Origin: Hamiltosporidium magnivora
Lineage: Eukaryota > Microsporidia > Dubosqiidae
DNA length: 10,816 bases
Direction of reading: 5' to 3'
Assembly: GCA_004325065.1 (NCBI GenBank)
Contig: PITI01000567.1
Coordinates: 1 to 10,816 of the forward strand
Shown here piece by piece: positions 2,599 through 10,816 of the stretch. The notes below the pieces were generated by a model, which was not told the origin of the DNA, ran no database searches, and saw only the letters and a program-made list of their open reading frames with translations. The position numbers and the translations under genes are program-made. The stretch's first letter is position 1, and every line of letters starts with the position of its first letter.

Positions 2599-3463
2599 AT
2601 TGATTTATTTTTAAATTGAGATTCATGCGCAAATACTATAAGACATATCTCATTCAATTAATAATATCATTAAAAGCTATAGCCTAAAGAATCCTTATAT
2701 CACAAAAATTCTCACGAATTAAAAAAAACAGATTTTAATTTTACATTTTATCAGTTTAAAAATTTCGAGAAAAACATATTAGATTTTTTGTCTATAGAAA
2801 TCACCTTAACTAATTTTTTTGAAATATTAAGATCATTGATATAACTTTGCACAGTGTTTTCTAGGAATATTTGCCATCAAGAATTTATGGAACAGAATGT
2901 TTTCTTTAATCTTGATTAATATTTTAAAGACACGTGTGCGTATTTGTCAAAACAATTGATATTTATTATGTTCTACTCGAGTAAAACAATTTTTCTCGTG
3001 GATTTCTTGCATTTTCATATATATTATGAGACAACGAAGCTATAACCCACATGCTCGACGAACAAATTTTTGTTTCAAATATAGAATACAAAGTTTCTAA
3101 TATTTTTTAATTCATAGTATCTTATGTTGTATAAAAGATTGTTTAATGATCGAATTATTACTTTTTGATTGATAAAAGTTAAAATTTAGTATTAATAATC
3201 ACATCGTATTAAAAAATATTTTTAATTCTTAAGAAGTATTGCAGCTCATTCAAGTAAAAATATATATTTTACATATGTTTATTTAACTTCATGGATGTAT
3301 ATCCAATCTGTCAACTTACTTATAACATATCGAAACGTTCGCATTTTCTAAAATAAAAAAATTCCTGTCTTTTTCCATAATGTATCGTATGTTATAGCGT
3401 ACAATTGTTAAAATGTAAAGATGAATATTATATTAAGAACTATACCGCAATTTTTTTAGACTT
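2599..3463. other. Intergenic DNA, no gene seen
   Basis: AT-rich sequence with stops in all frames. The part from about 2850 to 3080 is a little richer in G and C (for example CACGTG at 2932-2937) and could be a worn remnant of something coding or repetitive, but no frame or motif is readable. Confidence 0.5.
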
Positions 3464-4188
3464 TTTTTAAAAATATCACATCTTTTATAAATAGTGGCAA
3501 GTGTTATATTTGTTTTCATGACATTAACGCGTTCTAGGTTGTACATAAATATCTGCTATACCAACACACCATCAGTACCCCCTGCGATACCTACGTCCAA
3601 AGCCTTTCATCTACCAGGTGTGTAGAACCTAATTAATAGGCGAGGCGGCTGTCCGAAGTTTTTTAATGGCCGTTGCATAGTGTGTGATTGAAGGCCGAAG
3701 TCCCCCCAGGGCTCCCCCAAGACTATGAAGCATTCCACTTACTCTAAACTTTCTGAACCCAATAAACTTTTAGCTAAGATTCATTTCAGACACTTAGATA
3801 GGGTTCACCTAGACGGTTAAATGTCATACCAACAGGTATAACCGCTACTTAGGTATTCTAGATTTAAATGTGTTTATTTTTGATATCCCCCAGGCTCTAG
3901 GTTTTCTACCCGAGTGAGCCAGGCTAGGTTTACATGCTTTTAGATTGTAATTGGCTTCATGTTTAGCTGCAGTCTGCAATCTAGTTACATAAAAAACCAT
4001 AAAATAGATTTGTAGAAAAGTTTTGCTATTTCGTAGATCTCTTCTCCTCATAAAAACTCTCATTGAACAACCGAAGATGTAGTGTGGTTTTTTTCCACTA
4101 AAAATCCAAACAATGACCCCACACCAGTTTCACACACTCATTGCCAAGCAGAAAGTTTTTTATGTGGATATATATCATCTCTCGACTA
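3464..4188 (-). repeat. Interspersed repeat family, copy 2 (full length)
   Basis: The most informative copy, ~725 bases on the minus strand. Read from 4188 downward it starts TAGTCGAG and, after a short AT-rich stretch, joins the shared block CCACATAAAAAACTTTCTGC. It then carries AGATTGCAGACTGCAGCT, GGCTCACTCGGGT, a TTTATTGGGTTCAGAAAG block, GGTTCTACACACCTGGTA (where copy 4 is cut) and GGTATCGCAGGGGGTACT. It ends with AACACTTGCCACTA at 3492 plus about 28 further bases still alignable with copy 3. The GCCACTA end is the inverse of the YAGTGGC-like start. An ATG at 4063 opens a 72-codon frame (to 3845) whose residues MRRR-LRN and VTRLQTAA recur in copies 1 and 4; no domain is recognised. No target-site duplication is visible next to either end. 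Confidence 0.9.
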
Positions 4189-6930: not shown

Positions 6931-7814
6931 ATGAAACTGAAGCTTTTTATTTCAATGATGGTAAATACTCTAATTTTCCTTGTATTAGAAATACTAATCT
7001 ATAAAAAACATTACAATTCCATTAAATTTACTAAAAACACAGAAGAATATATTGCCAATTACGATATTTATTCGTCTTTTTTGTGCTTCGTTTACCGCAC
7101 ATATTTTTTAATGGCAATATTGTTCTGCTACAAAATAGAATATATCTATGTTTTTGTAGTAGTAAAGATTAATATTATTTTGTTTAAAATAGAACAGATT
7201 ATTTGTAATGGAATAGATTTAATAATTTTATTGCAAATATCTTTAAATATGTTATTTGGATACGTATATACAATTGAAATTAATCGAGTAAAGATCAGTA
7301 CATTATGGAACCGACGTAGTATAATTGGCATTGAAATATTTTCTAGAAATTCTTATTTGGTAAGTATTTTTTTCTAATTTAGATTTCAAAAGCTGTTAGA
7401 GCCTTAAGAAACTTTTTTTATGTTTGGAATTTTTCTACATTTTTGATGAAAATAAGATGGAGGGAAAGTAATTTGCTCTTGACACAGATAGATTGGATAT
7501 ATACATGTTTATTGATAATAGAATTTCCGTTTTATTATATAGGAAGCCAAGGAATCATAAAATATAAGATTGTATCAATATTTTTTATCTTTATAATTAT
7601 AATTAGAGAATTATCAGAAATGGTTCTTCTTGGTTTCAAACCTAAAAATGATTTTCTATTTTTAATAAGATTCATTTTACTACGTGAGCTACTCAAATTT
7701 TTAATTTTAATGCTGCTTTTGATTTTTTCAATTCAACTATATTTTCTCGCAAATTACGAATTAGATCATTCAATGGAGACAAATGAAAATCAAGTAATTC
7801 TGATGGGCAATTAG
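6931..7814 (+). CDS. Two-exon multi-pass membrane protein, 286 aa, unknown function
   Basis: Exon 1 (6931-7359) supplies 143 codons and exon 2 (7383-7814) another 143 plus TAG; a 23-nt intron separates them. Unspliced, the frame stops six codons into the intron, and exon 2 lies in another frame. The ATG follows an in-frame TAA at once, so the start is well fixed. Hydrophobic segments lie near residues 5-24, 47-66, 69-85, 95-115, 180-196, 204-226 and 246-266, giving about six or seven membrane passes. Between the two halves is a basic loop (117-170) with many Arg and Lys; the intron falls within it. The C-terminal ~20 residues are acidic and hydrophilic. Residues 227-232 read GFKPKN, echoed by GFKAKN in the 79-aa ORF at 9983. 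There is no signature motif that I recognise; it is probably a lineage-specific membrane protein, and its cellular location is unknown. Confidence 0.7.
7360..7382 (+). other. 23-nt spliceosomal intron
   Basis: Begins GTAAGT at 7360, has a run of seven T, and ends TTCTAATTTAG, with a CTAAT branch-site-like sequence only four bases before the final AG. Removing it joins two reading frames exactly at a codon boundary (phase 0). Length, the strict 5' consensus and the branch site next to the acceptor match the short introns known from microsporidia. The intron carries an in-frame TAA and its length is not a multiple of three, so retention would truncate the protein. Confidence 0.75.
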
Positions 7815-8950: not shown

Positions 8951-9669
8951 CAGTGGCGGATGGAGAACAACCACATAAAAAACTATATATTAGCATAAAG
9001 TATATGGAATTAATGTGGAAATCGTTGTTTGAATCTTTGGTATGAATTAATCACACAAATTTTCGGTTTTTCAATAGGATTTGTACGAGGAGGAAAAGGT
9101 TTACGAAATTGCAAAACTTTTTCTACAAATCAATTTTATAGTTTTTCATGCAACTAAATTGCAGACCGCAGCTAAACTTGTAGGTAATTACCCTGTAAAA
9201 GAATAGAAACTTAGTCTTGCTCACTCGGGTGGAAATCTTAGAGCCTGAGAAATATCAAAAATTAAAACGATATAACACCGAGAAAGCCAAGGTGCAGATT
9301 ATACTTTTTGGTTTGACATTACATTGTCTAAGTAAACCCCATGTAAGTGTCTGTCATATATATTAGCTAGATGTTTATTGGGTTCTGAAATTGTAGAGCA
9401 AATGAGAAGGCTGCATAGTCTTGGAAGAGCCCAAGGTGGGTTTCGATCACATTTCATGCAACGGACATTAACGAGTTCCGGGCTACAGCCTCTCCTTTAA
9501 TTGGGTTAAGACTTCTTTATGATAAAGGGCTTGGGGAAGTAAGTATCGCAGTGGGTACTATATAGAGTGTTGGGACAGCAGTTATTAATGATAAACCAGA
9601 ACTGCATTAATGTCATTAAAACAAATATAACACTTGCCACTGTTTTAAAAAGATTTGATACTTTTAAAT
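8951..9669 (+). repeat. Interspersed repeat family, copy 3 (full length, decayed)
   Basis: A full-length but diverged copy on the plus strand. It starts CAGTGGCGGATGG, reaches the CCACATAAAAAAC block, and keeps ATTGCAGACCGCAGCT, TTGCTCACTCGGGT, TTTATTGGGTTC, GCATAGTCTTGG and GTATCGCAGTGGGTACT. TTGCCACTG at 9634-9642 is the inverse of its own first bases, CAGTGGC. Similarity to copy 2 continues for about 27 bases beyond that point. Many differences from copy 4 replace G or C with A or T, as expected of an old copy drifting toward the AT-rich background. The short ORF of the other copies has lost its ATG (ATAGGATTT here) and contains stops. The eight bases flanking each end do not match, so no target-site duplication is seen. 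Confidence 0.88.
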
Positions 9670-9982
9670 AACGGAATATATTTTAGTATAATTACTATTA
9701 GTTATTTTTTTGCTTTGAAACTTTTTTTTAACACATAATTATCGTGAAGAAAATTGGCTATGTATTTATAGTGATTTATATGAAAAAAGTAATAACAAAT
9801 CAAAATATTTTATATGAATAAGACAGTTTATTTAGAATTATAAAATTTAATTAAATATTTTTTATAATCTAGATGATCCAAAATATTTCAAATATAGACT
9901 ATTAATAAATTTTTGCTCCATGAATAAACTGAACGCAAATGGATAAGCTAAGCTATTAAATAAAAAAAAATGTGAATTCAGG
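9670..9982. other. AT-rich spacer, no gene seen
   Basis: AT-rich spacer between repeat copy 3 and the 79-aa ORF. A minus-strand ATG frame (10098-9862, 78 codons) spans part of it, but it overlaps the 79-aa ORF, lacks any start signal, and looks less like a protein; I treat it as a shadow. Confidence 0.5.
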
Positions 9983-10222
9983 ATGAATGAAGAATTAGAA
10001 CCAAGATCACAAGAGACTTCATTTCCTAAGATATCTTTTATATTTAATAGTAGGATTTTTAAATTTATAAAAGAATTAATATATTTTATTCTAAACATTA
10101 TTCTACATATAGGTTTATATATTTTAGAAATAATTTATGTAAAGTATATTATTTTAATCGGAACAATTGTTTTCAAATTAATAGTAATTGGATTTAAAGC
10201 CAAAAATATTATTTGCATTTAA
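9983..10222 (+). CDS. Possible small membrane protein, 79 aa, unknown function
   Basis: An ATG-initiated frame with a hydrophilic, charged N-terminus (residues 1-16, rich in Glu, Ser, Gln, Pro) followed by hydrophobic segments at about 32-51 and 55-70 and the ending GFKAKN-IICI. The charged head followed by two membrane spans is more protein-like than random AT-rich sequence, and the codons are A/T-ending as expected. The GFKAKN motif, after a hydrophobic run, resembles GFKPKN at residues 227-232 of the 286-aa protein, so this may be a fragment or short relative of that family. The stop lies only 18 bases before repeat copy 4, so truncation by repeat insertion is possible. No CCC-type motif or TATA box is visible; it may also be a chance frame. 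Confidence 0.35.
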   Translation: MNEELEPRSQETSFPKISFIFNSRIFKFIKELIYFILNIILHIGLYILEIIYVKYIILIGTIVFKLIVIGFKAKNIICI

Positions 10223-10240
10223 TTATATTCAATATACAGT

Positions 10241-10816
10241 TAGTGGAGGGAGGATAACCACATAAAAAACTTTCTGCTTGGCAATGAGTGTGTGAAACTG
10301 GTGTGAGATCATTGTTTAGATTTTTGGTGGGAATAAAACCACACTACATCTTCGGTTGTTCCATGGGAGTTTGTATGAGGAGGAGAGGTCTAAGAAATGG
10401 AGAAACTTTTTCTACAAATTTATTTGTAGTTTTTTATGTAACCAGATTGCAGACCGCAGCTGAACATGTAGGTAATTGCCATGTAAAAACATGGAAACCT
10501 AGCCTTGCTCACTCGGGTTAGAAGACTTAGCGCCTGGGAGATATAAAACAAAAAACCATTTAAATCCGGGAGAGATAAGTAGCAGGTTATACCTGTTGGT
10601 ATGACATTGCGCTGTCTAGGTGGACCCCATGTAAGTCTCTGAAATATACCTTAGCAAGAAGTTTATTGGGTTCAGAAAGTGTAGAGTAAGTGGGAATGCT
10701 GCATAGTCTTGGGGAGCCCAGGGGGGGCTTCGGCCTTCGATCACACTCCATGCAACTGACATTAACGAACTCCGGGCAACTGCCTCGCTTAGTAATTAGG
10801 TTCTACACACCTGGTA
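10241..10816 (+). repeat. Interspersed repeat family, copy 4 (cut by window edge)
   Basis: The first ~576 bases of the repeat, starting TAGTGGAGGGAGG and running off the right edge within GGTTCTACACACCTGGTA; comparison with copy 2 puts roughly 150 bases outside. It is nearly identical to copy 1 over their shared 235 bases. It holds clear hairpins: CTACAAAT/ATTTGTAG at 10412-10429, CCATGT-AAAA-ACATGG at 10479-10494, and a 6-bp stem closed by a C(UUCG)G tetraloop at 10723-10738. An ATG at 10363 opens a 52-codon frame to 10521, in register with the frames of copies 1 and 2. The G+C content is visibly far above that of the flanking DNA. It could be a non-autonomous transposon, a retroposed structured RNA, or a remnant of a larger element. 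Confidence 0.9.
10723..10738 (+). other. C(UUCG)G-capped hairpin inside repeat copy 4
   Basis: Bases 10723-10728 pair with 10733-10738 (C-G, G-C, G-C, G-U, G-U, G-C) around a UUCG loop. This tetraloop with a C-G closing pair is among the most stable RNA loops. Copy 2 keeps the loop and closing pair but has one mismatch in the stem; copy 3 has lost the region. It is suggestive of a folded RNA but not proof. Confidence 0.45.

Follow-up and report, generated by a model that had tools for sequence, protein, structure and literature searches.

A probable 23-nt mini-intron inside a gene of a divergent multi-helix protein family in Hamiltosporidium magnivora

Introduction

In the window analysed here, a stretch of 10,816 nt from the microsporidian Hamiltosporidium magnivora, two neighbouring reading frames raise the question of whether they are separate genes or a single gene interrupted by an intron of only 23 nt. 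Microsporidian introns are reported to be few and short, with many at the 5' end of ribosomal-protein genes (PMC3749934). They have been used to ask why few introns survive near-total loss, and the discussion rests largely on ribosomal-protein genes. A sequence-only reading of the locus had proposed a single gene for an unknown membrane protein, with the intron in its middle. We find that positions 7360-7382 very probably represent a genuine mini-intron of the U2 type interrupting one membrane-protein gene, a judgement drawn from sequence comparison, and that this intron is probably partly spliced.

Results

Removal of 23 bases joins two long open frames

Taking the 23 bases out at 7360-7382 joins 143 and 143 codons into one frame of 286 aa that ends with the stop at 7812-7814 (Table 1), while leaving them in stops frame 1 of the window gene at TAA 7375-7377, giving a 148-aa ORF. 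The letters of the intron, the exact removal of 23 nt, the 143|143-codon join at a codon boundary and the ORF starting at ATG 7446, as given in the sequence-only reading, were confirmed in every detail. The intron has the GT-AG borders and strict GTAAGT donor of microsporidian U2-type mini-introns, and also their TAAY near the 3' AG (CTAATTTAG, 7374-7382). This copy of the gene has no lesion besides the 23-mer, which itself carries all splice signals.

Table 1. Coordinates and loci of the window gene, its relatives and two further genes with introns of the same form
Feature	Position or locus	Strand	Description
Predicted intron, spliceosomal type	7360..7382	+	23 nt, GTAAGTATTTTTTTCTAATTTAG, phase 0; same 23-mer at C305:13059-13081(-)
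Exon 1	6931..7359	+	143 codons, open from ATG; N-terminal half of multi-helix protein
Exon 2	7383..7814	+	143 codons plus stop; open throughout, second intron unnecessary
5' splice site GTAAGT	7360..7365	+	read from the sequence
Branch-site-like CTAAT merged with 3' splice site TTTAG	7374..7382	+	CTAATTTAG; putative branch role
In-frame TAA if intron retained	7375..7377	+	gives 148-aa product
ORF of 122 aa that unspliced annotation would give	7446..7814	+	starts at ATG 7446
Gene A	window (C567)	+	286 aa; site-1 intron only, 23 nt, phase 0
Gene B	C305/L007	-	302 aa; two introns, 23 nt in phase 1 and 21 nt in phase 2
Gene C	C414/L044		281 aa; two introns, 20 nt in phase 0 and 19 nt in phase 2, the latter with donor GTAATT
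Gene D	C66/L036		20-nt intron (phase 0); degenerate further on
Gene E	C271/L042		278 aa; site 1 intron-free; 21-nt intron (phase 2)
PPPDE gene	C227		22-nt intron
Cytochrome b5 gene	C568		21-nt intron

Motif counts were controlled with the reversed pattern in the same 10.7-Mb assembly. GTAAGT-N3-30-CTAATTTAG occurs 4 times against 4 for its reversed pattern, GTAAGT-N12-TTTAG 18 times against 17, GTAAGT-N2-14-YTAAYTAG 15 against 14, GTAAGT-N2-16-CTAAYWWAG 4 against 9, GTAAGT-N2-16-CTAAYNAG 15 against 11 and GTANNT-N3-12-TCTAATTAG 13 against 6. Motif enrichment was dropped as evidence for introns, the counts lying within the noise of the reversed control in five of the six pattern searches, with GTANNT as the exception. 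It is the coding context of the window motif that goes beyond chance; motif counts alone do not.

This context was measured over 211 kb (the window plus L014-L033), where only 14 of 60,000 random 23-nt cuts produced a join with 100 or more open codons to either side, nine of them in L026, four in the C305 region and one in the window. The nine long-frame-joining cuts within the 10-kb region L026 perhaps mark another interrupted gene. We also cut each of the 86 GTAAGT sites in the same 211 kb by 20, 21, 22 and 23 nt, a pass again being 100 open codons on either side. Passes with a cut length not divisible by three came only from the window (23) and from C305 (20 and 23), and both passing sites end in CTAATTTAG.

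The strict form GTAAGT-N4-9-CTAATT(T)AG is present at 11 places in the assembly, seven of which connect frames that are 45 codons or longer on both sides (C567, which is the window, C305 twice, C414, C271, C227 and C568); the remaining four join 170|34 codons (C66), 28|41 (C135), 2|32 (C57) and none (C99). Six of the 11 lie within the five family loci described below. Among the nine introns tabulated, the donor is GTAAGT in eight, which were found by searching for GTAAGT, and GTAATT in the ninth, the second intron of C414. All nine end in CTAATT(T)AG, eight of them having come from search patterns in which this ending is required.

Two unrelated genes carry introns of the same form

The C227 protein joined over its 22-nt intron contains a PPPDE domain (PF05903, 5.4e-41) at residues 4-135, with the junction after residue 56, and the C568 protein joined over its 21-nt intron contains a cytochrome b5 domain (PF00173, 3.3e-18) at residues 32-91, with the junction after residue 50. 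Both scans were run on the joined proteins, and each match spans the junction. At C568 the junction falls immediately before HPGG, which we take to be a cytochrome b5 motif. These two genes are an independent control for introns of the window's form. A further strict-form candidate of 20 nt lies in a small hydrophobic ORF (28 + 41 codons) in C135 (L038, around 1500), for which no Pfam family scored over its cut-off.

The window gene belongs to a divergent family

The relatives in C305, C414, C66 and C271 were found through intron-pattern searches, so that intron-free members are under-sampled. In an alignment of genes A, B, C and E, the junctions of the window and C414 fall in the same column and C271 reads through, with W126 and G133 of the window protein, just before the junction, among the invariant columns. 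The 20-nt intron of C66 occupies the same column and phase as those of the window and C414, and the first junction of C305 lies, by eye, about 11 nt upstream of this column. The second-site intron of C271 is found about 50 residues before the end of the protein, as it is in C305 and C414. A single membrane-protein gene, as seen in the sequence-only reading, is supported, with the correction that this gene is part of a divergent family of five or more members, which have seven mini-introns between them.

A comparison of C414 with C66 gave dN/dS values of 0.24 for exon 1 (143 codons) and 0.34 for exon 2 (86 codons), at dS of 1.44 and 1.77, near saturation; these ratios fit purifying selection on both exons. 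The introns of the two genes agree at 18 of 20 bases, the search pattern itself fixing 14 of the 20. C66 (L036, around 1500-1900) is interrupted by a stop in exon 2 and changes frame later on, and its first intron signals are intact.

The four intact members are multi-helix hydrophobic proteins of 278-302 aa with 6-8 hydropathy segments (6 in the window, C414 and C271, 8 in C305); the broken C66 has 7. A low-confidence model (pLDDT 51.5) of P0121, a public record of the C305 gene, consists of helices throughout: four precede the intron site (residue 150), one begins at that site and two follow it. None of the four intact members matched a Pfam family, at E <= 1 in the case of the window and C305 proteins and at E <= 0.1 in that of C414 and C271. 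Our best guess is that the family is a surface or organelle membrane protein, diverging fast by duplication. It is a new, fast-diverging multi-helix family, found so far in Hamiltosporidium only. Genome searches with the single window halves retrieved only themselves, the C414 protein retrieved itself and C66 only, and the C271 protein only itself; since these searches missed other known members, further members may exist.

The restored frame is conserved across the junction

Removal of the 23 bases restores a frame conserved in relatives, the joined window protein matching C414 and C271 across the junction as well as a profile of four relatives. The Smith-Waterman score of the window protein is 151 with C414, which is spliced in the same column and matches along both exons (maximum of 1000 shuffles 121), and 108 with C271 (a score reached by 0/1000 full shuffles, whose maximum was 105). 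When exon 1 of the window was shuffled, the score was reached by 0/1000 against C414 and 3/1000 against C271; when exon 2 was shuffled, by 0/1000 against either. The local alignment with C271 is gap-free over the junction (YLISKAVRALRNFFYVWN / YIISENLKALRNLCYFHN), and C271 is the kind of homologue that the sequence-only reading had suggested looking for, one that reads through the site with the intron absent. With a 50-aa junction piece, the score was reached by 1 of 2000 shuffles against C271, 40 of 2000 against C414 and 478 of 2000 against C305.

A profile of genes B, C, D and E scored 13.2 bits with the joined window protein, compared with -26.8 for the reversed sequence and a maximum of -12.1 for 1000 shuffles, and leave-one-out profiles scored 9.1 bits for C305 (1000 shuffles, maximum -3.9) and 10.4 bits for C271 (maximum -4.2), the degenerate C66 member being included in the profiles with an X placed at its stop. 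Each window exon alone scored below the shuffle maximum against the family profile (5.4 bits, maximum 9.0; -0.2 bits, maximum 9.2). Compared directly, the window and C305 proteins have a composition-adjusted E of 0.57, the reversed sequence scores higher, and 201/1000 full shuffles reach the score. Homology between the two, as indicated by a first pairwise BLAST (E 2e-5), was rejected as a composition artefact, with C414, C271 and the profile as the sole connection between the two.

Public records hold the C305 gene with and without its first intron

The family profile was searched against 5.8 billion proteins at lengths of about 157-500 aa, with 7992 candidates scored. Two records were retrieved at E <= 1, both of them LUQ84_3561 of Hamiltosporidium tvaerminnensis (P0121 and P0122) and neither naming supporting reads; full-length records of the window, C414 and C271 proteins were not found in this search. 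P0122 (157 aa) is, letter for letter, the C305 gene left unspliced and read into the 23-mer. P0121 (250 aa) is the C305 gene with exactly the 23-mer removed and intron 2 read through, and it agrees with the C305 gene product in all residues but the final one (249/250), where the mismatch stems from this read-through. The 23-mer removed in P0121 is letter for letter that of the window. A homologue ending near residue 143-148, together with a separate gene for the second half, had been named in the sequence-only reading as pointing to two genes; the 157-aa record does end near residue 148, and it is exactly the C305 locus unspliced, not a separate gene. A search with the joined window protein alone gave no homologues at E <= 10 among 1087 candidates.

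Annotation of the H. tvaerminnensis genome used funannotate together with Iso-Seq transcripts (PMC10542269), and the text of that paper makes no mention of LUQ84_3561. Funannotate with AUGUSTUS and GeneMark-ES has been reported to predict numerous false introns in microsporidia (PMC10815200). We found no description of the family in open-access titles, abstract starts and passages. Splitting genes at the intron would hide the family, and ordinary annotation can miss such introns.

Discussion

We propose that 6931-7814 is a single gene whose product, a hydrophobic protein of 286 aa, has about 6-8 helices and is presumably located in a membrane. The spliceosome would use the GTAAGT donor and the fused CTAAT branch site/TTTAG acceptor, as in other microsporidia, such that spliced RNA would yield the full 286-aa protein and retained RNA would reach the stop inside the intron after 148 aa. 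A search for U6 (RF00026) gave no match in the assembly, and the same search was also silent in all 14 control genomes.

The closest comparison is with H. tvaerminnensis, which is separated from its sister species H. magnivora by a reported 0.012-0.017 substitutions per site (PMC12558613). Its genome has 98 predicted introns, of which 17 in 15 genes were confirmed by Iso-Seq; the confirmed introns have a mean of 28 bp, are GU-AG in all but two cases and are 7.5-92.3% spliced (PMC10542269). They come from the same organism as the window's intron or a sister species, they are likewise very short, and C305 is LUQ84_3561. A polymerase-kappa ORF in L028 of the assembly has 100% identity with a protein from H. 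tvaerminnensis. Elsewhere among microsporidia, the introns of Encephalitozoon cuniculi measure 22-76 nt, many being in other than ribosomal-protein genes (PMC3629993), Vavraia culicis has four introns in other genes of known function (PMC4435813), and Spraguea lophii has two spliced introns that are situated 89 and 152 nt into their genes, with six of eight short intron-like motifs still present in its transcripts (PMC3749934). The likeness to these three species lies in GT-AG borders, strict donor and branch motifs, very short length, low number and often inefficient splicing (PMC3629993, PMC3749934, PMC4435813). Unlike many microsporidian introns, those of the family lie about halfway or further along membrane-family genes, with up to two per gene. 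The extremely short introns of mikrocytids are similar as shrunken introns of a reduced intracellular parasite, although mikrocytids belong to a separate lineage, the Rhizaria (PMC10245619). The window intron is thus of a known kind in an unusual place, well inside genes, and present or absent between paralogues. The expectation that a mid-gene intron would be unusual holds as far as its atypical place is concerned, but the intron is not unique, as illustrated by the PPPDE and cytochrome b5 genes and by the two S. lophii introns.

Given the range of splicing seen for the 17 H. tvaerminnensis introns, both the 148-aa and the 286-aa products are expected, and the retention of most S. lophii motifs implies that efficiency at the window intron could be low. 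As a compatible addition, the retention product may matter in its own right, with the intron, here and in related genes, acting as a switch that decides whether the full protein or a half protein with about four helices is made. This would agree with the in-frame stop that retention yields in the window gene, with the public records of C305 (157 aa with the intron retained and 250 aa with it removed, the longer one still holding intron 2) and with the splicing range reported (PMC10542269). However, low efficiency is general in microsporidia, with a median of 25.3% in V. culicis (PMC4435813), and may be plain inefficiency, and C271 has no intron at site 1 and therefore no such switch there; we regard a switch as unlikely. 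Also speculative, and in our view rather improbable, is the broader idea that the family is a mini-intron refuge in a nearly intron-free genome, where introns come and go among paralogues at two sites and retention halves the protein, splicing efficiency setting the ratio of half to whole. As an intron, the window's is ordinary; it is more interesting as part of a family with introns retained, lost and perhaps used. The members differ in the sites that carry introns, which makes gain, loss and retention testable within one species.

Three readings compete with a genuine, partly spliced mini-intron. That the 23-mer was copied between the window gene and C305, where its two positions are offset by about 11 nt in the alignment and differ in phase (0 and 1), seems to us quite improbable. 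Its letters are identical though the two proteins are not directly alignable, and C305 and C414 align with no gap over the offset, as read by eye; against this, the signals fix 15 of the 23 positions and the rest are an A plus seven T, the introns of C271 and C57 share the whole 7-base middle with no known relation, and sliding, misalignment or chance suffices. It is very unlikely that the window gene is a decaying copy in which splicing of the 23-mer has ceased or nearly so, leaving little or no full protein. Degeneration of the relative C66 (exon 2 stop, later frame change), the repeat-rich window contig and the finding that most short intron-like motifs of S. lophii are unspliced in transcripts (PMC3749934) would be compatible with decay, but the window has no further lesion and complete splice signals, and the public C305 protein record has the identical 23-mer removed. 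Lastly, two separate genes, coding for proteins of 148 aa (6931-7377) and 122 aa (7446-7814), are highly unlikely: both ORFs exist, mechanical annotation would yield them and the similarity of each exon on its own to the family profile falls short of significance, but C271 holds both halves in one uninterrupted frame, the score against C414 is lost on shuffling either window exon (0/1000), and a large part of the 21 codons that open exon 2, ahead of ATG 7446, lies in the block matching C271.

Other features of the window and the assembly

Copies of a dispersed repeat, in both orientations and 74-100% alike, occupy positions 1-235, 3463-4171, 9059-9671 and 10243-10816 of the window; both contig ends lie inside this repeat, which is probably why the assembly stops there. 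On the reverse strand, a 102-aa ORF at 1699-2007 begins like a signal peptide, continues with an acidic middle rich in Ser/Thr/Asn and ends in a hydrophobic C-terminus, and so resembles a GPI-anchored surface protein; its six Pfam matches at E <= 1 are all under the curated cut-off. A 79-aa hydrophobic ORF at 9983-10222 on the forward strand gave no Pfam match at E <= 1, and Rfam gave no matches over the whole window. A search of the assembly for SSU rRNA (RF02542), with 5 of 110 candidates scored, likewise retrieved none. Elsewhere in the assembly, the contig pairs L019/L020 (C4, C5), L018/L032 (C3, C18) and L022/L025 (C7, C10) have equal-length ORFs in common whose first 60 residues are the same or nearly so, which suggests that these pairs are duplicated or uncollapsed assembly pieces.
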